From IMG/VR virus record IMGVR_UViG_3300028840_006004, positions 28,627-92,626 of that record: a DNA stretch of 64,000 bases. One strand, 5' to 3'. The stretch comes from a virus. Shown piece by piece: positions 1 to 53,691 of the stretch. The translations under genes were made by a program, and so were the position numbers. The notes under the pieces were generated by a model. It saw only the letters and a program-made list of their open reading frames with translations, did not search any database and was not told where the DNA came from. Each line of letters begins with the position of its first letter. The first letter of the stretch is position 1.

Positions 1-3000
1 TTCTAATGTAAAGAAAGGATCCCCTGACTTAGTTGTTTTAGTCATATCCACATTACCGAATATGGTTTGAACCAGGTTATAAAAGATTGTTTTACCAGCA
101 GGATTTGTTGCCTGTTTGGATGCAGGCCTGGTAAGCTCTTGAATAATGTAAGCATCAATGAGCTTTTTATTTTCAGCATAGGAAGCCTGTTCAACATCTT
201 TATAAATAGATAAACTCTTATTCTTCAGCTCACGCATTGTTTTGCTAACAGCGATATATACAGAATTAGGGATCTCACCATAAACAACATAAGGCTTCTC
301 TTCTCCTTCGATTATTTCAGACCCATCGAAATAACGGAATACTTTTCCAGCTTCACGCCTTGACATATAATAGTCGTGATATTCCATTAAGGTCTGATAC
401 ACTTTCTGAACTGCACTTTGGAACGAATGTACTCCAGCAAACTTTTCTTTAGCAGATACGGATTTACCTATACCGTAGAAAGAGAAGATCATTGGAGCAA
501 TGTTTCGTTCTGCCCAGAAATCTATATTCTCATTACTACCGAACAGGAATGTTTTCTGTTTACGTACTATATCAGTGTTGAATTCATTTTCGATATCAGC
601 TACTTTTGGGAAAATGATGGCTTCCGGATTAGATGGTATTTTATATTCGTTGTTGGCAAAGTATCCATCATCAACCTGAGCCAAAATAGTCTGGATATCG
701 CTGGAGAATAATTTGAATTTCGAGTACAACCATTTCTTAATCTGAAGAAGTACTCTGCCGATGTAGGTAGTTGGTCGATAATTTTCGTATTCAAACTTTT
801 CGGCAAGATACTCATGCGCATCGCCATAAGTTGCACCTGCAGGTAATTCTTTCTTTGCAGCATTGATCAGAGAAATTCTTTGTTTGTCACCCATTAAGTA
901 TTCGATAACAAAGTGAAGTGATTCGTGATCAGGAGTAGTTCCTTCAATTCCTTTACTTATCTGAGCGATCTTCATCAGACCGTTCTTAACAATTCCCCAG
1001 TGAGCTGTTCCCTTATAAATAATCAGTCCATCTTCAAAACCAAGATACTTCTGAGCATTCTCACTACCGATCAATTGTGCTATTCTCTGCAGTGCAGCTT
1101 CTTTTGAAATATAGGTAGTTTGACCTGGCACCCATTTCTTGCCATACTTTTTAAATCCAGTCTGGAATGGATTATCGTTATCACTTGTTTGACCTATATC
1201 TTCTTGTCCAGTCTTTGCGTCTTTTGGTTTTGGGCCAATGTTTGCAGATTTGCTACGAGCAACAGATTGGTTCACGCCAATAGTATTGGTTGTCAAATAT
1301 TCGACATTAACCTTCTTGCTATCATCATCGCGAACAATAACTGGGTAATAAAAGCGTAAAGGCCGTGACCTTCCTGCAATCTTTGTTGTTGCGGTAAGAT
1401 TTCCATTCTGATCAGCATAACGATTCTCAATCGCCTTAATAATATGCGGAACAGCTGCCTTGAGATTCAGGAGCCTTTGTTTATAGGTACCTCCTTTAAC
1501 CTGAATATTTTTATAAGTTACCCCGCTTTTAGAGGTAACTTCTTTTGTTTTGAAAAAACGCTCAAGATTAGGATCGGAAGCTATCATGGACGTAGCCATT
1601 TCTGAATTTGCATCCATCCATCTCGAGATTAACGATTCTCTTACAATACCATCCTGAGCACGTTTTGTTAACGCTTTAAATTCAGGATTATCTTCGATAT
1701 CCTCATTCCACATTTCCTCTATTTCCTGGACCAAAGCATCATATTTTTTCAACTCTTGAGTAGCGCCGGTAAAGAAAGATTTAATCACATCGATATCGCT
1801 CTCATTCGATTTTGGTGCTCTTTTCATTGGAGCAGCATCAAATATTACATCCACAATATTACCATCTGGATCTTTGAAACTGATCAGGATATTAAACCTG
1901 CCTCCTCGTTTGTCCCTGCTATATTTCAACGGAGTAATAAATCCTTCATCATCGAGATCTTGAACTAAGCTAAAACCATCATTTTGCATCTGTTCTAACA
2001 GACCGATAAAAGACATACGTTGCGCTCTGGAAGGCATCAGAAGATTTTTTTCAATCGTAACTTTCGTACCAGTAGTTCCCGGTGTTTGATTATTGTGAGC
2101 TTTATGAACCTGAACAAACTTGGCCACATTCATATCGATAGTATTCTCCAGTAATTCCTGGTTTTTAATTGACTTAGCAAAACTATCTTCCAAATATGCA
2201 TAAACAGCTTGCTTTGCATCTTTAAATGGCATTCCTAACCATTTATTGAACTCAGGAACTTTAGACAGCCAGTTGTCAGAGAATTTTTTATCCTTATTAT
2301 TAGGAACACGAGCCTCAGCCGGTGTATCGATACCAACGAAATCAAGGCCGAGCTCTTTCATTTGTTTTTTACTGATACCAATTTCTTTTGCTACAAAATC
2401 TAATTGTTCTTCAGTAAAGCGTATTTCAAATACGTTATTATAGATCTCACCTTCATAGGACCTGGTGCTACGATTTGGTACAGTATAAACTGCGCTTACA
2501 CGATAAATCTTGTCCAGGACTGACATCTTAGCCGGAAGTTTAGTGATCGCATCCAGTGATTTTAATTTCAGATCGAACCATTTATTTTTCTTACGATTAA
2601 ACATATTGGCACCTGAACCCATTTTCTTTTTCCACTCAGCCTCATTAAAATCAGGACTGGATTGTGGAGCAAGCATGTGTGTAACATAGATCGTGCGATC
2701 TGTTTTATATTCAATTGCACTACGCTCACGAATAAGTTCCGGAGTTCCTTCGACAGGATTCCAGATATTATGTGTTAAATAACTTTGCGGAACTGTAATT
2801 ATTTCTCCCGTTACCTGGTTTTCAAGATTAGCAATTAATCCGTTTTTATCAAGCAGAAGATCTCTAACAAAATAAGCTTCGCCCGTTTCTTTTTCTACAA
2901 TAGGATCAGAGGTAAATATATCTACACCATCTCCAAGATGAGCAACATCGATTTTGCGTTTTAAGGCAAAGAGAACGGTAGGATCCGCAATACGAAATTC

Positions 3001-6000
3001 AGTTCTTTTTAATCCAATTGCTTTGGCAACATCTTCAATAGGAACATCAGTTGATTCAACTTGATCAACAAAATATTCTGCTGGTAAATCACTTTTCTCA
3101 ATTTCTATCCAGGATTTACTATCAGCGATATTAACGTTGTACACATTGTTAACAATCCATCCTTTTTCTTCAGCAATGAACCGGTAGGTGTGGGCCAATG
3201 CTTGACCGTACTTATTCAGTTCTCTCGGGTGGAGTGTATAAGTTCGTGTAAATATGTCTACGATAGGATTTCCATTTTCATCATAACCGACAGTTTTGAT
3301 CATATATGGACTTCCTTGAATATCCAGATCTTTTGGTTTAATATTTGGACGATGGACGCTGAATTCATTATAACCCATAGTTTCTGCTACTTCTTGGGCA
3401 ACAGCGATCATTCTACGCTTAAAACCATTAACCCTTCCGTTCCATCTTGCGGTTCCTTTACCCTGATTCTCTTTATCAGCATCTTTCTCTTCCTTGTTCA
3501 TTGGACGATACTTTCTGATTAAAGAATCGAGCAGGTTTTCAATTGATTCAACTTCATCTTCTTTCGCTATCACGCGCTGGAAAGCAACATCAAATATTGC
3601 TCGGCGTTCTTTAAGTTGTTTATTCTCGAGAATTTGGCTTTCAGTTTTTTCCTGCTTATCCTGTAACCATTGAGCAGCTATGTCAGAAGCGTGACGGAAA
3701 CCGGGATATGTTTTTGTTTCAGTTGTTTTCTTGAATGCAGCTTCAGCATCATCAATATTATAACCACCATCTCCAAAATACATCTGCGAATCAACCTTAT
3801 ACAGGTCATCAAGTTTCGCTTTCTTTTTACCCTTACGTTTCTTTTTCTTCTTCTTTTTATCAGTGCCTTCTTCTTCGTCAGTAACTTCTTTTTCCTCAGT
3901 TCCAACGATTTCAAAATATGCAGCACGTTCCATTCGCTGTGCTGTTAAGCGGGCGAGCACATCCTCATCAGTTTCTATTGTTGTGGAATATCCACTGATA
4001 GGAGTATTGTCAGTAACTTTTCCTGAAATCTCAGGATTACCAAACATTTCAACATATTGTGAAGCGCGGGATACAGCAGTAAGCATAATTGCTACAGCGT
4101 CACCTTCTCTGCCACCACTTTCAGGTAATGCAAAAAGACCGGCATCGCCTTCAAGCATTGAAGCCATATCAAATGGAATGAATACCTGGTCAGCTTTCAA
4201 TCCTGAAGCATTATACTTAAATCGTTTTGAATCCTGGCGGATCTTCTTAGCATCATATTCAAGAGTGAATATTTTATCTTTATGCATTCCAAGCCTGTCA
4301 CCATACTTATCAATTAGCTGTTCCATATTTGCATAAGTAGGAACCAAAAGCATTTGTGTTTTACCGGTTTCATTTGCTTCAGCAAATTCAACTTGATCTA
4401 AAAAGTTTTGTACAATCTGATCAAGTCCCTCTGTCCTTTTAATATATCGAACACCGACATTACCATCAGGAGATGTTTTCCATTTAGTTTCGGTAGTTCC
4501 GATAGCTTCATCAATTTGTTCAGTAGTTACTCCAAGAGCCCTGCGATATCCTTCCTGTAATGCACGGATATAAATAATTCCTGTACGGAAAATCTGATTC
4601 AACGCATTTGTTTTCTCACCAAAATTATCAACAGGATATAATGCATGTGAGTTGTTTAAACTCTTTACCTGGCCTTCATCACCGAGAATAACTACACGTT
4701 TTTTATGTTCACGTTGCCATGATCTGAGTAAATTTCCTTCTTCTTTAGCATTTTCTTCAACTGGATCCGGAGCAGGAATGGTTGACCCTTCTTCATAAAT
4801 AATGATATCAGCATCCTTATAAAGATCCTCATTATTTACCAGATCGTGTGCCGGGATAAAAACAGGATTAATTGTAGCTTCGGAACCTATTTCTGAAAGC
4901 CGTGTATTGATTTCTTCAACAGCATCACTATGAATTTTTTCTACTCCTTTTGTAGGAATAATGTAGAGTACATCAATAGCTTTGTTTTCCAGCGCTGCAT
5001 AATATAACAAAGCATTCTTCGCTACCATTGCGCTTTTACCACTACCTGCATAACCACGTACAAATAGGGTATGATCGATAAGCATTTCCCTGGTTCCTTC
5101 AGGATAGTTCCAGTCTTCTTTATCCTGGGACTGCATGAAAGCAACAACATCAACAATAGCATCCAGTTGCTCGAATGTTTCCAGGTCGTCATTATTAGCT
5201 TTTGTAAGATTATTCAAGTTGAGCTTCTCAGCCTGAGCAAGCATCTGTCTTCTGGTATTGGTCTTTCCATTACCAAGTGAATTTGCTACTGATAAGAATT
5301 GGAAATAGCTAAAAGTATAGAGCGAATATTCATATTCTTCCTGTCTGAATTTTTGTTCCTGAATATATTCAGAAGCGCTTTTCTTTCCGCCTTCTTTTTT
5401 ATAATCAGAGAAAGATTTCCATACAACTCTACCGTCATCATATTTTCTAACCGAAGCAAGTCCATCGTATGTCCCGGAAGACATATTGTATACAGGCTCA
5501 TCGGCAATCTCGGTGCTTATGTAAGGAAGTTCATTATTGGAAGTTTTTTTAACATGCTCAATAAAACCACCAAGTTTACCCGAGAAAATCTCTTCGATGT
5601 CCATTAGCTCTTTATCAATTAAAGCAATAGCGGCTTTTACACTATTTTTTTCAGGAGATTTTCCATCTGACGTATAAATGCTATTGTAATAGAGAGGGTA
5701 TAATTGTTCCGGATAAACATGATCATTGTCAGCATTTTCAACATCAGAAGTGGTTTTGTACTTACTGATTGTCTTTTTTATGATTTCACTGATCTTTCTG
5801 CTTTTGTTGGTGACAGTAGCAATATCGTCCTTTGTGAGTTTATGTTTAATGTCATCGTTACCCGCATCGATAGCAACAGATCTCATGTGATGAAGCATCC
5901 TGGACTGGTTTCCAAGTTTAACTTTCACGCTTTCACGTTCAGTACTTGCTGACTCCAGCCGTTTATCCATCTTCCACGAATCATTGATCACTTTCTTGAA

Positions 6001-9000
6001 CCGCTTAACGAATTCATCGATGAACTGACGTTCTTCTCCAAATGGATCCAATCGCCATTTTGAATTATCGTCTTGGTGATAAATCGAGTGCTCGTTGCCT
6101 TGACCTGAAGGTAATTTCTCAATATGATTCTGGGTAACATCTACCATTAATTCCATCATTGTGGTAATTGTATCCAGTAATTGATCAGCAATATCAAGTT
6201 TATTAATCCACTCTGCTCCATTGTCGATCGGGAGATTTGGATTTCCGAATACAATCTGAGCGTCATTGATGATATCAGCAATGGAGGTTTCAGCTCCATT
6301 TGATAATGTGAATTTATTATTCAGCATTCCCAGTAAAAGTCCCAGCTTATATGTACCGATCTTTGCATCACGGAAAGCCTGCGATCTGCCATCCTCATCA
6401 ATTTCAAATAGATCCTTGATAGTTTGAGGCGCATTACGAAGCATTTCTCTTAAATGTTCCTGCATAACAACTTCAGGCATCGCATCAATTGTACCCTCAT
6501 ATTTAGCCAGTATACCGGCATCACGCTTAGTATTGAATTGTTCGACATCAGCTACTCTCTGAGCAAGATCACCTTCATCTACAATATCATCACCTATTCC
6601 TGTTTCAACAGGTTTTCCTTCGATAACTTCAACTGCATTATCATAAATCAGATTCATTATTTCGACAGCTCTCTTACCCTGCTCAAGCGCACCGGTAAAT
6701 ACGCCAACAGCGGTTTCATCATAGAGCATCGCTTTTACATTGCCGAATACCTTAACAGCATTTTCGATATACTTATTGATTTCAGTATTCAAACGCTGTC
6801 CCTTCTTAATCATTTGTCTGCCATATTCCCCTCTGGCAATAACTTCATTGATAGCATCCACTATCCCAAGACCAGTTTTCTTTGGAAATAATACTGCTGG
6901 TTTTCCTTCGCCTTCTTCAATTGTTGTTGCAACTTCACGACCAGCTGTTTCGGAAACACCTGCCTCTTCCTGAATTCTAATTTCCTCTTCCCATTCTGCT
7001 ATCTGAGCATCGAGCCCTTCATCCTTGCTTCCACGTTTTTTCCTGGCTTTCATATCAGCCAGTTCTTTACGTAATACTGTCAATGGTTTTGCAACCTTAG
7101 CTGCAGCTTTTCCTTTTTTAGGAGGCTGTTCCAAGACTTCTTCAAAGTCAAATGTTTCACCCTCGATCCTTGCCATTTCAGCAAGCGGTGACTGTAGGTC
7201 AAGATTTTCCAGATTACTTTCCTGCGCCCTGGAATTGTGAGCATCAATTACTGACTGAAGACCATTCGGTCCCCATTCTTTAAGAGCTTTGGTCAGCATT
7301 TCCCATACAGGATATATTTTACGATCATTCAACGCCTCGAGTATTACCTGGCTGGTTGAATTTTTGATCTTTTTCATTTCCTTTTGGTAGGCATCTACTG
7401 GAACAACATCACCATAACGTTCCTCGATATTCTTCTTGGCTTTTTCAGAGATCAGTACATCAACTGCATACAGACCGTTCATTTTTTCAGTGAATACTTG
7501 AGAGGTAGTAACCTCAACACCATCAACTACATTGGTCTTTTTTTCTGTAAGCATTTTCTCATAAGCATCATTACGTTCAATCCAGGCTTGAATTTCCTTT
7601 TCGTCAGTAATACGCTTAACACCTATTTTATCCCATTCAGCATTAAGAGCCTGCTCTCTCGCTTCAGGTTCTAATTGCTCATTATCCATAATCGCCAAAA
7701 TCCCTTTAAGGGATTTGGTTGTTTCTTTTGTCTGTAAAAGGTCGAACAGAAAAGATTTATCACCTCCGAGTGTTTTTATTAACTCAGGATTATCCAGATT
7801 ATGTTCATTGATTGCGGCAACATAATATTCAAGATCTTGACGGAAACCTACTTTAACATCATCTCCGACATTTTTTTCGAGATGGCCCATCTTAACCCAG
7901 CTGTCCACCATACCATCAATTTTATCGAATACGGTAGGATCATCTTTGGCTCTCATAGCAAGATCCATCATCTGTTGTCCCTGGCGATTTTGACCTGCAG
8001 TAATATTATGAGCGATACCCATAGTAAAAGTAGATGATAGAAACGCAATAGCAGGCTCCTCCCAACTGAAACTCTCATCAAGCGTTCTGGATCCATCGAG
8101 GATACCTTTAGAAAATTCGATTTGACGCTCAATTTTCCTCTTCTCTTTCTCGTTCACACGATCAATTGTAATACCATTGGAATTCTTCATGGCATAATCA
8201 CCACCAGGTAGCGGATCGAATGTAGCACCTCCATTCTTACGGAGATTATTTTTAGCCATATTCCTTTCAATAGCATTAAAAAGCGAAGCGAAAGTCATGT
8301 GACCTACACCCTCAGCTGCCTCTTCAAAACCTTCTTCAACACCTGCGCCTACAGCTTTGCCTGCTCCTTTAAGCAATCCTTTTCCCGCAGCCATCTTATG
8401 AAAGTTCCTTCTCAAAGCTCCAGTATATTTATTGGCCCAGAATCCTTTTGCCGGCATTTCTAATGCTTCAGCTTCAGCTAATCCTTTTACCATTCCTCCG
8501 GACACATCCTCGATTACTTCGGCTGCAGAAACTCTACTGAGATTATTAAATATTCTCTGTCCTTGCTTCACACCAAATCTTTGTACAAGGTTAGCTGAGA
8601 TAATATTTTCTGAACCGTGAGTAATAAGTCCGAACATTAATCCCATTGCTTCAGCCTCCTGGGCTGAGTATCCTTTTCTGACAAGATCATTACGTGTAAG
8701 ATCATATACTGTAAGAGATCCTATACTGATTGACATTTGAGTAGCAAGTTTGGTTCCGACACCAGCTGCGCCCAGGGAGAAACCTGATGCGATCATCGGT
8801 AAGAATTGACCAACTCCGTCCCAAAATGAATACAATATTGAATTGGCATTATCAAACACACCTACAGCTTCGTCATAATTTTGACGTTGCATTGCTGAGG
8901 CTGCATTTGACCATTGGTTCGCAAGATCATTTAATTGACTTGCGTTGACCGCTTCTGTATAAGAACGATCTGTACCGACCATCAAAGCCGGTGCTGCAAC

Positions 9001-9735
9001 AGCATTAAGTACATGGAGTAATCCACCTCCAGCCTGAACAGTTTTTCCTACTGCGCCAGAAATAGTACCTCGAGATGCAGATCCTAACCAGGTAGAGTTT
9101 AGCTCCCGCGCTCCTCCTACCCATTCATAAGGTTTAATCTTAGCAGGATCCCCGAGCTCACCATCCTTGAGCTCCCGATAAACCCATGTATTTAGTTTTT
9201 CATCCCACTCATTCTGAAGTTTATTTGTGTTGGAACGTTTGTCGTATTCCTCTAATGGAAGAAGAATACCATTACGATCATAATAAAGCTCATTCTTTTC
9301 AGCGATCTGATCCTGATGTTCTATGATTACTGGTTGTTCAAGTCCAAGAAAATTGGCATAATTGGAAGGGCCTGTATTAATCCAGGATTCATCTTTATCG
9401 AACCATTTTAACTGGCCTTTCTCAGCCTCGGTTCCACCACCCGTATCATAAGTGCCTTCATAATCATAAAGATTCCACCTGCGGTTTTTATAAATATCAA
9501 ATTCCGCCTGCGCATGACCATAAGCAAATTTAAGATCTTCTTCAGGTATTTCCTTATCGGTTTTTGACTGCATTAAGGTAGAGAATTCCTCGTATGATTC
9601 GAGCTCTACCGGTAAATTGAAGTTTTTTTCTGCCTGGTAGATTGCTGTCAAGTCATGTTCCTGCATACGCGATTGGACATAATTGATCGCTGTTGGCTGC
9701 CTACCCTGGCCGTCACTTCCTGCTAATTTTGTCAT
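1..9735 (-). CDS. Giant ejected 'polyvalent' protein, SF1 helicase plus zincin (partial, runs off left edge)
   Basis: Open from the ATG at 9735 to the window edge, at least 3,245 residues and incomplete at its C-terminus. The start overlaps the upstream stop as ATGA. Residues about 195-490 are rich in Gly, Ala and hydrophobic residues and could be membrane-active. A complete SF1 (Pif1/RecD/Dda-like) helicase follows: GYAGSGKS (from 1561), IIIYEEGS (1647-1649 is YEE), GDEGQ (1685) and LTAVSRASQYVEMFG (1885). A Lys-rich linker lies near 1957-1971. A HESLH zinc-peptidase motif is at 2937-2941, with AHEYLAEKFEYE about 30 residues on as a possible third ligand region. It is last in a run of internal virion proteins, so I infer ejection into the cell with the DNA. 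Multi-domain proteins of this kind are known as large polyvalent proteins. No RNA polymerase motif was seen in the visible part. Confidence 0.85.
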   Translation of the reverse strand, partial: MTKLAGSDGQGRQPTAINYVQSRMQEHDLTAIYQAEKNFNLPVELESYEEFSTLMQSKTDKEIPEEDLKFAYGHAQAEFDIYKNRRWNLYDYEGTYDTGGGTEAEKGQLKWFDKDESWINTGPSNYANFLGLEQPVIIEHQDQIAEKNELYYDRNGILLPLEEYDKRSNTNKLQNEWDEKLNTWVYRELKDGELGDPAKIKPYEWVGGARELNSTWLGSASRGTISGAVGKTVQAGGGLLHVLNAVAAPALMVGTDRSYTEAVNASQLNDLANQWSNAASAMQRQNYDEAVGVFDNANSILYSFWDGVGQFLPMIASGFSLGAAGVGTKLATQMSISIGSLTVYDLTRNDLVRKGYSAQEAEAMGLMFGLITHGSENIISANLVQRFGVKQGQRIFNNLSRVSAAEVIEDVSGGMVKGLAEAEALEMPAKGFWANKYTGALRRNFHKMAAGKGLLKGAGKAVGAGVEEGFEEAAEGVGHMTFASLFNAIERNMAKNNLRKNGGATFDPLPGGDYAMKNSNGITIDRVNEKEKRKIERQIEFSKGILDGSRTLDESFSWEEPAIAFLSSTFTMGIAHNITAGQNRQGQQMMDLAMRAKDDPTVFDKIDGMVDSWVKMGHLEKNVGDDVKVGFRQDLEYYVAAINEHNLDNPELIKTLGGDKSFLFDLLQTKETTKSLKGILAIMDNEQLEPEAREQALNAEWDKIGVKRITDEKEIQAWIERNDAYEKMLTEKKTNVVDGVEVTTSQVFTEKMNGLYAVDVLISEKAKKNIEERYGDVVPVDAYQKEMKKIKNSTSQVILEALNDRKIYPVWEMLTKALKEWGPNGLQSVIDAHNSRAQESNLENLDLQSPLAEMARIEGETFDFEEVLEQPPKKGKAAAKVAKPLTVLRKELADMKARKKRGSKDEGLDAQIAEWEEEIRIQEEAGVSETAGREVATTIEEGEGKPAVLFPKKTGLGIVDAINEVIARGEYGRQMIKKGQRLNTEINKYIENAVKVFGNVKAMLYDETAVGVFTGALEQGKRAVEIMNLIYDNAVEVIEGKPVETGIGDDIVDEGDLAQRVADVEQFNTKRDAGILAKYEGTIDAMPEVVMQEHLREMLRNAPQTIKDLFEIDEDGRSQAFRDAKIGTYKLGLLLGMLNNKFTLSNGAETSIADIINDAQIVFGNPNLPIDNGAEWINKLDIADQLLDTITTMMELMVDVTQNHIEKLPSGQGNEHSIYHQDDNSKWRLDPFGEERQFIDEFVKRFKKVINDSWKMDKRLESASTERESVKVKLGNQSRMLHHMRSVAIDAGNDDIKHKLTKDDIATVTNKSRKISEIIKKTISKYKTTSDVENADNDHVYPEQLYPLYYNSIYTSDGKSPEKNSVKAAIALIDKELMDIEEIFSGKLGGFIEHVKKTSNNELPYISTEIADEPVYNMSSGTYDGLASVRKYDDGRVVWKSFSDYKKEGGKKSASEYIQEQKFRQEEYEYSLYTFSYFQFLSVANSLGNGKTNTRRQMLAQAEKLNLNNLTKANNDDLETFEQLDAIVDVVAFMQSQDKEDWNYPEGTREMLIDHTLFVRGYAGSGKSAMVAKNALLYYAALENKAIDVLYIIPTKGVEKIHSDAVEEINTRLSEIGSEATINPVFIPAHDLVNNEDLYKDADIIIYEEGSTIPAPDPVEENAKEEGNLLRSWQREHKKRVVILGDEGQVKSLNNSHALYPVDNFGEKTNALNQIFRTGIIYIRALQEGYRRALGVTTEQIDEAIGTTETKWKTSPDGNVGVRYIKRTEGLDQIVQNFLDQVEFAEANETGKTQMLLVPTYANMEQLIDKYGDRLGMHKDKIFTLEYDAKKIRQDSKRFKYNASGLKADQVFIPFDMASMLEGDAGLFALPESGGREGDAVAIMLTAVSRASQYVEMFGNPEISGKVTDNTPISGYSTTIETDEDVLARLTAQRMERAAYFEIVGTEEKEVTDEEEGTDKKKKKKKRKGKKKAKLDDLYKVDSQMYFGDGGYNIDDAEAAFKKTTETKTYPGFRHASDIAAQWLQDKQEKTESQILENKQLKERRAIFDVAFQRVIAKEDEVESIENLLDSLIRKYRPMNKEEKDADKENQGKGTARWNGRVNGFKRRMIAVAQEVAETMGYNEFSVHRPNIKPKDLDIQGSPYMIKTVGYDENGNPIVDIFTRTYTLHPRELNKYGQALAHTYRFIAEEKGWIVNNVYNVNIADSKSWIEIEKSDLPAEYFVDQVESTDVPIEDVAKAIGLKRTEFRIADPTVLFALKRKIDVAHLGDGVDIFTSDPIVEKETGEAYFVRDLLLDKNGLIANLENQVTGEIITVPQSYLTHNIWNPVEGTPELIRERSAIEYKTDRTIYVTHMLAPQSSPDFNEAEWKKKMGSGANMFNRKKNKWFDLKLKSLDAITKLPAKMSVLDKIYRVSAVYTVPNRSTRSYEGEIYNNVFEIRFTEEQLDFVAKEIGISKKQMKELGLDFVGIDTPAEARVPNNKDKKFSDNWLSKVPEFNKWLGMPFKDAKQAVYAYLEDSFAKSIKNQELLENTIDMNVAKFVQVHKAHNNQTPGTTGTKVTIEKNLLMPSRAQRMSFIGLLEQMQNDGFSLVQDLDDEGFITPLKYSRDKRGGRFNILISFKDPDGNIVDVIFDAAPMKRAPKSNESDIDVIKSFFTGATQELKKYDALVQEIEEMWNEDIEDNPEFKALTKRAQDGIVRESLISRWMDANSEMATSMIASDPNLERFFKTKEVTSKSGVTYKNIQVKGGTYKQRLLNLKAAVPHIIKAIENRYADQNGNLTATTKIAGRSRPLRFYYPVIVRDDDSKKVNVEYLTTNTIGVNQSVARSKSANIGPKPKDAKTGQEDIGQTSDNDNPFQTGFKKYGKKWVPGQTTYISKEAALQRIAQLIGSENAQKYLGFEDGLIIYKGTAHWGIVKNGLMKIAQISKGIEGTTPDHESLHFVIEYLMGDKQRISLINAAKKELPAGATYGDAHEYLAEKFEYENYRPTTYIGRVLLQIKKWLYSKFKLFSSDIQTILAQVDDGYFANNEYKIPSNPEAIIFPKVADIENEFNTDIVRKQKTFLFGSNENIDFWAERNIAPMIFSFYGIGKSVSAKEKFAGVHSFQSAVQKVYQTLMEYHDYYMSRREAGKVFRYFDGSEIIEGEEKPYVVYGEIPNSVYIAVSKTMRELKNKSLSIYKDVEQASYAENKKLIDAYIIQELTRPASKQATNPAGKTIFYNLVQTIFGNVDMTKTTKSGDPFFTLE

Positions 9736-44201: not shown

Positions 44202-44419
44202 ATAGCAAATATACAAAAAAGTATCATTCTATTCCGCGCCATTAAAAACTTTTTTAAAAATCTCGGTTAGGGTATAAGACCTTTTGACCCTTAATCCGGT
44301 TTTCCGTAATAAAAACACCCCCCGTAGATAGTTTACACGCTTGCGAGATAACCCCCATACCCCCCGCATAGCTTACAGTAATTAAAGTTAATTTAATAAC
44401 ATTAAAAAATTCGTGCTTT
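44202..44419. promoter_or_regulatory. Divergent switch region between left and right blocks
   Basis: No gene fits here. The region is AT-rich apart from C-runs on the plus strand at 44318-44323, 44352-44356 and 44360-44365 (G-runs on the minus strand). It also holds a short stem (44262-44294: TTAGGGT against ACCCTTAA) and a TATATTTG box on the minus strand at 44206-44213. Since the left block starts at 44201 and the right block at 44420, promoters for both directions must lie here. An origin or operator is possible. Confidence 0.55.
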
Positions 44420-44722
44420 ATGTATTTAACAAAAGAACAGTTTGACAATGCAGTAATCGGCAAAGGCTTGATAGATGCCGATACCAACTATGACCAAGTA
44501 ACCATTGTGGAAACAAAGGGAACAAAGGAATGGCGACCAACTATTATGCAGACAAGCAAAGAAAAGGTGAAACACGTTGTAGAGTTTGAAACCTTGATTG
44601 GCTTGGTGCGTGAAAGTGGGAAAGCTAAAGCAAAGAAGGAAGGTAACAAGATCGTTGGTTACGATTTTGACTGGAAAGATATTCCAATGAAAGTTAAAGA
44701 TGGTACATTAATGAATGCATAG
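44420..44722 (+). CDS. First gene of the right block, unknown, 100 aa
   Basis: A small soluble protein, charged in its second half (GKAKAKKEGNKIVGYDFDWK), followed by a strong terminator. No domain is recognised. Being the first gene of the divergent right block and having its own terminator, it may be an early, separately transcribed gene. Confidence 0.65.
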   Translation: MYLTKEQFDNAVIGKGLIDADTNYDQVTIVETKGTKEWRPTIMQTSKEKVKHVVEFETLIGLVRESGKAKAKKEGNKIVGYDFDWKDIPMKVKDGTLMNA

Positions 44723-52529: not shown

Positions 52530-52745
52530 ATGACTGATATATTCAAACTTACTTATAAAGTAGGAAACAGAGAATTTCCTCTTTATTTTGACAGTCAAGA
52601 CAGAGCTGAACGCTTTAGAAATGTAATTCTTGAAATAGCAACTGATCGTAACCATCCGGCTGTACATCCTAAAGCTGAAATCATAAAATTAATTGATTCA
52701 GATGCAGATATTGTTGATGCAGCCAAAGCATCTGGAATAATATAG
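52530..52745 (+). CDS. Unknown protein, 71 aa
   Basis: A small alpha/beta protein (FKLTYKVGNREFPLYFDSQD), acidic at the end. It is the last gene before the 700-base non-coding gap. Not recognised. Confidence 0.6.
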   Translation: MTDIFKLTYKVGNREFPLYFDSQDRAERFRNVILEIATDRNHPAVHPKAEIIKLIDSDADIVDAAKASGII

Positions 52746-53430
52746 TAAAATAGGGTTAAGACTTCATAACTCCGCCCTGTTTTAATCTCCTGCCTGAAAG
52801 CAAATAGTAAGAAAACAGGAATGCGGATGAAGATTTGCTGAAAATCAATGTGAGTGCAAAATATCAAGCTGGCTCTGAATATATTACAGCCTGCAGTAGG
52901 CGTTGTTTGTGGAAGGGATAACAAATTAAATATTACCATCACTTGAAAAGGTGAAAAAGGTCGTTCTTCGGATATATCTGGGTGGTTAAGTCCAGCTGGC
53001 TCAGTCCCAGAAAATATTTAAATTATTCACTGACTGCACAGTGACAGGAGATTTTTAAAACATACTCAATAGAACCATTGAGATAACTTGCAGGTACAAG
53101 ATTGGAATGGAATAATGGTTGAAACCCCAACTGATCCTCTTTATCATAGCTGATGTAAGTTCAGGTAATATGGCGAACCTCCAACGCCTGCAGGTTTTTT
53201 TAAATAATGTGTATGCATCAAGGCTACCAGTAACAAGTAGAAATACTTTCGGTACTATGGCATAAATATTAGTGGTGGCGATGTTACTGGTTCAGTCCAC
53301 TAAGCACATTTAAAAGAAGCGAGGCCGAGTACTTAAACAGCTTGTTCACAGGTTCCGAAAGATATCAAGATGAGCAAGGGTACGATGATGGTGACTAAGC
53401 AGGATATGGCCTATCACCCGCTTCTTTTTA
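52746..53430 (+). ncRNA. Large structured non-coding RNA candidate, ~685 nt
   Basis: No coding frame fits the ~700 bases between the 71-aa and 81-aa genes, and complementary helices fill it. The 5' domain has an 18-bp bulged stem (52762-52783 with 52812-52832) and a loop 7-mer (52799-52805) that pairs with the bases just after it (52833-52839), a pseudoknot. The middle has a GAAA-capped hairpin (52939-52954) and stems at 53027-53044 and 53065-53082. A second pseudoknot joins 53227-53234/53283-53290 with 53269-53275/53297-53303. The 3' domain is closed by 53312-53321 with 53419-53428 (10 bp), then 53322-53326/53408-53412 and 53341-53348/53371-53378. A U-run follows, so the closing helix may also end the transcript. 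Size and ornament recall the phage GOLLD and ROOL RNAs; class not identified. Confidence 0.75.
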
Positions 53431-53445
53431 TAAAATTTACTTCAC

Positions 53446-53691
53446 ATGGGAATATTAATGGAAAGATTACAGGCACAGCTGAAAAGACCTGACTATAAAA
53501 AAGATGCTGAAGATTGTATAAAAATATACAATTGGATAAAAGAAACAGATCCGGAAGGTAGAGTATGGAATAGCAGATGGCGACCTTTAGTAGATGTTGC
53601 ATTCAAAGGATTTCCAAGTGATGAAAGAAATTATAAACCTTCTATTACTGGATATGCTGTATTAAAAGGAATTGAAAATGAAGAGAAATAA
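53446..53691 (+). CDS. Unknown protein, 81 aa
   Basis: A small charged helical protein (LKRPDYKKDAEDCIKIYNWI) with Trp residues (NSRWRPLVDVA). It begins 15 bases after the structured RNA region; a Met at 53458 is an alternative start. Not recognised. It overlaps the next gene by 14 bases. Confidence 0.55.
   Translation: MGILMERLQAQLKRPDYKKDAEDCIKIYNWIKETDPEGRVWNSRWRPLVDVAFKGFPSDERNYKPSITGYAVLKGIENEEK

Follow-up and report, generated by a model that had tools for sequence, protein, structure and literature searches.

A 700-nt non-coding gap in a divergent crAss-like phage: a possible new type of large structured RNA

Introduction

What is held in a 700-nt gap between two small genes, in a phage record 96.4% of which is coding? 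The large phage RNAs GOLLD and ROOL assemble into RNA-only cages whose purpose is not known, and very few such classes of RNA are known. The crAss-like phages dominate many gut and environmental viromes, and no large structured RNA has been described from them in the literature searched. Here we analyse such a gap in a 64,000-nucleotide stretch of DNA (the window, bases 28627–92626 of a 92,626-bp virus record) and present it as a candidate for a large phage RNA of a new class.

The phage and its non-coding gap

The source phage is a divergent crAss-like phage that uses the standard code. Its assignment follows from the 490-aa capsid protein, which matches Pfam Crass_capsid (E 1.5e-15), from PHROG families matched by the portal and terminase, from the nearest terminases among annotated phages, which are those of crAss-like gut phages (∼25–29% identity), and from an unbroken minus-strand frame of 6810 aa (window 1–9735, record 17929–38361) that may represent, in a single protein, the giant virion RNA polymerase characteristic of crAss-like phages. 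The capsid, portal and terminase matches bear out an earlier note on this DNA, which had called it phage DNA. At window 44369–44420 a minus-strand structural block and a plus-strand replication block diverge and the GC skew switches; this is likely an early promoter or origin region.

The gap and its neighbours are as follows.

52530..52745, plus strand: upstream neighbour, a 71-aa ORF, no relative found
52746..53432, plus strand: candidate large structured ncRNA, whole element, of six consecutive helix-closed domains, proposed from its size, non-coding nature, long-helix excess and lack of an Rfam family
53446..53691, plus strand: downstream neighbour, an 81-aa protein with no assigned function, conserved among crAss-like phages (40–64% identity)

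The gap itself (52746–53445) is exceptionally large for this genome, being the biggest non-coding stretch of the record and more than 2-fold larger than the next, a stretch of 312 nt between converging gene blocks. No open frame crosses it: several stops, of all three kinds, occur in each of the six frames. Codon scores fall below those of the flanking genes, no coding periodicity is seen, and a PHROG search with five of the six frames as protein (all but minus frame 1) gave nothing below E = 0.07. A recoded or decayed gene is rejected on the stops in all six frames, the low codon score and the lack of a PHROG match in those five frames. The stops and codon scores agree with the earlier note, which had found no fitting frame here; a conserved protein frame across the gap, named there as an observation that would count against a structured RNA, was looked for and none was found.

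Predicted helices and domains

Five of the six strongest helices in the gap are mutually compatible and tile it from the first base past the upstream stop codon to a U-run that precedes the next gene by 13 nt (52746–56/52774–84, 52784–92/53045–53, 53085–95/53186–96, 53226–35/53282–91 and 53312–21/53419–28). The sixth, 52896–905/53182–91, competes with 53085–95/53186–96. U/A-rich linkers separate the domains. In the list that follows, domain 1 and its pseudoknot are read from the sequence.

52746..52836, plus strand: domain 1, with an 11-bp stem 52746–52756/52774–52784
52762–52767/52827–52832, plus strand: domain 1 pseudoknot, loop bases forming 6 bp with the downstream strand
52784..53053, plus strand: domain 2, a long-range 9-bp Watson-Crick helix 52784–52792/53045–53053, then a U-run
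52939–52954, plus strand: GAAA-capped hairpin enclosed, with module copy A, by domain 2
52974..53022, plus strand: pseudoknot-like module copy A, from self-alignment with copy B and a shuffle test; stem 52977–52982/53006–53011 around CTGGCTCAGTCC and an 8-bp partner helix 52867–52874/52994–53001
53065..53082, plus strand: small hairpin CTCAAT/ATTGAG
53085..53203, plus strand: domain 4, an 11-bp closing helix 53085–53095/53186–53196, then U7
53176–53180/53192–53196, plus strand: competing short stem in domain 4
53226..53303, plus strand: domain 5, an H-type pseudoknot in which a 10-bp stem 53226–53235/53282–53291 interlocks with a 7-bp stem 53269–53275/53297–53303
53235–53248, plus strand: GAAA hairpin in domain 5
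53266..53314, plus strand: second pseudoknot module (copy B), by self-alignment a paralogue of copy A, with CTGGTTCAGTCC
53246..53361, plus strand: possible loop-loop contact between domains 5 and 6, CTTTCGG (53246–53252) with CCGAAAG (53355–53361), from complementarity; 7-bp matches like this one often arise by chance
53312..53433, plus strand: domain 6, a 10-bp closing helix 53312–53321/53419–53428, then a U-run
53341–53348/53371–53378 and 53390–53394/53414–53418, plus strand: inner helices of domain 6, 8 bp and 5 bp

Most of the helices listed in the earlier note are recovered, at the positions given there or close to them. The 10-bp closing helix at 53312–53428, with its inner 5-bp and 8-bp helices and U-run, is present in full, and the GAAA-capped hairpin is found at 52939–54, with another at 53235–48. 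The interlocked stems are there, one of them of 7 bp as described, but the other has 10 bp rather than 8; similarly the 5' pseudoknot exists with 6 bp (52762–67/52827–32) instead of 7. An 18-bp bulged stem at the 5' end is not found as an uninterrupted or simply bulged helix, the stem there having 11 bp. Of the 11-bp helix 53085–95/53186–96 the earlier note had only the inner, terminator-like stem at 53176–53196, and the 9-bp helix 52784–92/53045–53 had gone unnoticed. A search for a consensus intrinsic terminator at the 3' end of the gap was negative, and no promoter was recognised.

Paired pseudoknot modules

When the gap is aligned with itself, the best alignment pairs 52974–53022 with 53266–53314, matching ATATCTG-GGTGGTTAAGTCCAGCTGGCTCAGTCC-CAGAAAATATTTAAA in copy A with ATATTAGTGGTGGCGATGT-TA-CTGGTTCAGTCCACTAAGCACATTTAAA in copy B. 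Common to both copies is CTGGYTCAGTCC, which is flanked by a stem in each (TCTGGG/CCCAGA in A, TTAGTGG/CCACTAA in B) and the first half of which pairs with an upstream strand, over 8 bp in A and 10 bp in B; the stem and the upstream pairing together therefore describe an H-type pseudoknot in each copy. The two stems differ by a pair of double substitutions and by an additional base pair, the halves of which lie at matching gaps.

As a repeat in sequence alone the pair is not significant, being equalled in 36 of 100 shuffles. In 3 of 500 shuffles the top self-alignment contained an aligned 6-bp stem with at least two compensatory changes, a figure for a pattern that was noticed before its shuffle test and for an alignment that depends on the method; MAFFT sets the modules in a different register and places the insertion elsewhere. 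Because of the order of noticing and testing and the differing MAFFT register, we regard the covariation between the modules as suggestive and not as proof. The paired modules suggest a structure under selection, and the covariation-like signal comes from these two internal modules only.

Structure compared with chance

The evidence for structure beyond chance is mixed, with long helices in excess and stability ordinary. Uninterrupted helices with a pairing score of at least 22 number six in the gap against a shuffle mean of 1.6, a count reached by 6 of 1000 shuffles and by none of 95 equally long segments elsewhere in the phage. The MFE of the whole gap is −173 kcal/mol, with z between −1.0 and −1.2 relative to dinucleotide shuffles, and its local windows fold no better than shuffles: 120-nt windows have a mean z of +0.24 in the gap versus −0.68 in the rest of the plus-strand region. 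The nesting had been described in the earlier note as far beyond chance, a view that the long-helix excess supports and the ordinary folding energy does not.

On the plus strand the domains give z −2.7 (domain 1), −2.2 (domains 3–4) and −2.7 (domain 5), values that are biased because the domains were picked for their pairing. Domain 1 scores −3.3 on the minus strand, compared with −2.7 on the plus strand, whereas the minus-strand values are −0.5 for domains 3–4 and −0.2 for domain 5. Domains 3–6 also fold better on the plus strand (z −2.2 and −1.9, compared with −0.5 and −0.2 on the minus strand).

Comparison with known RNA families

A search of the whole window with the 4227 families of Rfam 15 gave no match at gathering thresholds, and for 52600–53500 (901 bases) the only matches at E ≤ 10 were four chance matches to eukaryotic snoRNAs and miRNAs. 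The earlier note had raised GOLLD and ROOL as possible relatives and proposed a check with the GOLLD, ROOL and OLE covariance models; none of the three matched. Membership of GOLLD (conserved 3' region), ROOL and OLE RNA is rejected accordingly, no model matching in the window at the gathering threshold or in 52600–53500 at E ≤ 10. Group I and group II introns are likewise rejected, with no Rfam intron match at E ≤ 10, a complete downstream gene and a start Met shared by relatives. So are tmRNA and permuted tmRNA, ARAGORN and Rfam both being negative in the gap although Rfam detects a permuted tmRNA in a relative (L001, below).

GOLLD assembles into an RNA-only cage, a 14-mer, and its function is not established; ROOL forms a homo-oligomeric cage whose intermolecular kissing loops are conserved. 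The likeness to GOLLD, a large phage or prophage ncRNA of 700–800+ nt with many helices and pseudoknots, bears only on how the gap might work; the gap belongs to a Crassvirales host lineage and its helix plan is not that described for GOLLD. ROOL resembles it in size, in being phage-borne and in having several pseudoknots and loop-loop contacts, the contacts in the gap being only possible ones; set against the kissing loops of ROOL, its 7-nt complementary loops 53246–53252/53355–53361 are at chance level. It is possible, by analogy, that the gap RNA works like GOLLD or ROOL. GOLLD often lies close to a tRNA island in phages and prophages, and ROOL has been described near such islands (PMC12286853), whereas by ARAGORN the whole 92.6-kb record is free of tRNAs. 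OLE RNA is similarly large and ornate but is described mainly from Gram-positive extremophiles and anaerobes (PMC12054373), unlike the gap, which lies in a crAss-like phage and does not match its model.

Relatives and the 81-aa gene neighbourhood

No credible homolog of the gap was found by blastn in phages and plasmids, nor any homolog in seven related phage records. A blastn search of 395 genomes, all from the phylum to which G012 belongs, gave 10 matches at E ≤ 0.01, of 21–43 nt, scattered along the query and close in number to what chance would give. Neither domain 5 nor domain 6, used as a single-sequence covariance model, detected a homolog in 12 viral records. The pattern CCGAAAGATATCAAG matched 87 times in IMG/VR, mostly in apparent coding sequence and never with the flanking helix, and the pattern GGTGGN{6,14}CTGGYTCAGTCC occurred in IMG/VR and GTDB contigs mostly in GC-rich contexts, the two copies in the window being the only credible ones. 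Protein-anchored searches gave no relatives with the 71-aa gene or with the helicase and, with the terminase, one 4.9-kb fragment at 65% identity, the others being at most 39% identical. The absence of homologs is weak evidence, since very near relatives may be missing from the collections searched and the closest sequenced phage is this 4.9-kb fragment.

The 81-aa gene is 55–64% identical in L001–L005, 47% in L006 and 40–44% in annotated gut phages, and all seven IMG/VR records, the source record included, pass the crAss capsid cut-off. None of its IMG/VR relatives (47–64% identical) has an alignable gap. Non-coding material lies directly upstream of the homologue in two of the six relatives. 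In one (L001, IMGVR_UViG_3300031537_000001) it comprises a permuted tmRNA (RF04321 at 52 bits, which ARAGORN did not detect) and a tRNA-Asn (L001:5226–5723). In the other (L002) it is ∼535 nt without a convincing gene that ends in a hairpin and U-run and shows no helix excess. L003–L006 have little or no gap there. In cr108_1, 680 nt of unannotated non-coding sequence lie past the next gene and are partly conserved in cr111_1. These islands share genomic neighbourhood and non-coding content with the gap but no sequence similarity beyond short chance-level stretches, and Rfam identifies the tmRNA and tRNA of L001 but nothing in the gap. Because the relatives hold differing non-coding content or no gap at this place, the neighbourhood of the 81-aa gene looks like a variable slot able to hold non-coding RNA.

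Several features of these phages were seen in passing. Beside the tRNA of L001, a 15-bp helix AATAAACTTCTATTC/GAATAGGAGTTTATT (L001:5728–5819) encloses ∼60 nt ahead of a U-rich tail, possibly a further small RNA; an intergenic Pistol ribozyme (RF02679, 55 bits) lies at L001:10105–10159. The unannotated stretch common to cr108_1 and cr111_1 (L298:1606–2286 and L300:2480–3076), which are of different genera, has two hairpins that have the loop AATGAYTTRGTAARAGA in common and terminate in U-runs, and one stem shows a compensatory change of T-A to C-G (CCTATTC/GAATAGG to CCTACTC/GAGTAGG). A likeness of the domain 2 helix AATCTCCTG/CAGGAGATT and its U-run to a cr108_1 hairpin was left as probable chance. 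A PAPS-reductase domain protein with an N-terminal HTH (L008:8924–9949) is adjoined, in the same phage, by a C5 cytosine methylase (L008:7513–8958).

Discussion

The gap is probably best read as a large non-coding RNA, probably structured, and probably one not previously described from phages, no relative having been found to prove it. In its specific form, to which we give an even chance, this reading is of an orphan, lineage-specific structured ncRNA of ∼690 nt from the plus-strand block, a chain of about six domains that acts in trans and ends near the U-run. It rests on the size of the gap in a record so densely coding, the lack of coding potential and the excess of long helices; on compatible helices that tile the gap and the better folding of domains 3–6 on the plus strand; and on the pairwise changes in the module stem and the non-coding material that precedes the 81-aa homologue in two of the six relatives. 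Against it are the ordinary MFE, the failure to find a homolog, a promoter or a consensus terminator, and the absence of shared sequence in the gaps of relatives. We infer that such an RNA would be transcribed with the plus-strand gene block and fold domain by domain, two of its six or so helix-closed domains carrying the related pseudoknot modules. Its 3' end would form at or near the U-run 53429–53433, and it would most likely act in trans during infection as a stable RNA or RNP scaffold, as proposed for GOLLD and ROOL.

The main null is that the gap is a non-functional remnant, a decayed gene or neutral insertion newly acquired, with helices that are partly chance. Ordinary folding energy, the lack of a homolog in any collection searched and the variability of the region among relatives fit such an origin, which we nevertheless think rather unlikely: phage genomes as dense as this one rarely keep 700 nt idle, neither coding periodicity nor a protein-family remnant is present, and the helix excess (at ∼0.5%) and the paired stem changes between the modules would have to be accidental. 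The main functional rival to an RNA acting in trans is cis-acting control, by a leader or attenuator in which the folding of domain 6 sets read-through into the 81-aa/helicase operon; it takes this place because the 3' U-run lies 13–17 nt before the 81-aa start codon. The terminator-like closing helix and U-run immediately precede the ATG and leave no space for a promoter in between, the genes downstream are tightly clustered, and the U-run 53197–53203 could serve as an earlier exit. A length of 700 nt, however, far exceeds that of known leaders, no known riboswitch or leader family matches, and the helix before the U-run closes ∼97 nt, not a compact hairpin, with no consensus terminator there, so that we hold this explanation unlikely.

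Long inverted repeats also act in DNA, and the gap sits between replication genes (DnaB-like helicase and SF2 helicase), as a replication origin or a packaging or recombination site might. The skew switch, however, is at ∼44.4 kb, away from the gap, and the gap is rejected as an origin at that switch; it also has no iteron-like repeats or A+T-rich unwinding stretch, and domains 3–6 fold better on the plus than on the minus strand, which leaves a DNA element very improbable. Least probable of all is that the gap belongs to GOLLD, ROOL or some other known family but is so divergent that the covariance models miss it. The ∼690-nt size, the phage location, the pseudoknots and the possible loop-loop contacts are alike, but none of the Rfam families passes its threshold, only eukaryotic chance matches appear at E ≤ 10, and the record is devoid of tRNA.

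Returning to the orphan RNA, a more far-reaching form of the proposal, which we consider doubtful, is that it represents a class of its own among large ornate phage RNAs, from an environmental crAss-like lineage and unrelated in sequence to GOLLD, ROOL and OLE. Built with repeated pseudoknot modules, it would self-assemble or scaffold a phage RNP, and would occupy a slot that serves for tmRNA and tRNA genes in other crAss-like phages. If confirmed, the gap RNA would add a new class to the large phage RNAs and would be a defined target for structure determination, and the crAss-like phages would be seen to keep an ncRNA slot beside the conserved 81-aa gene.
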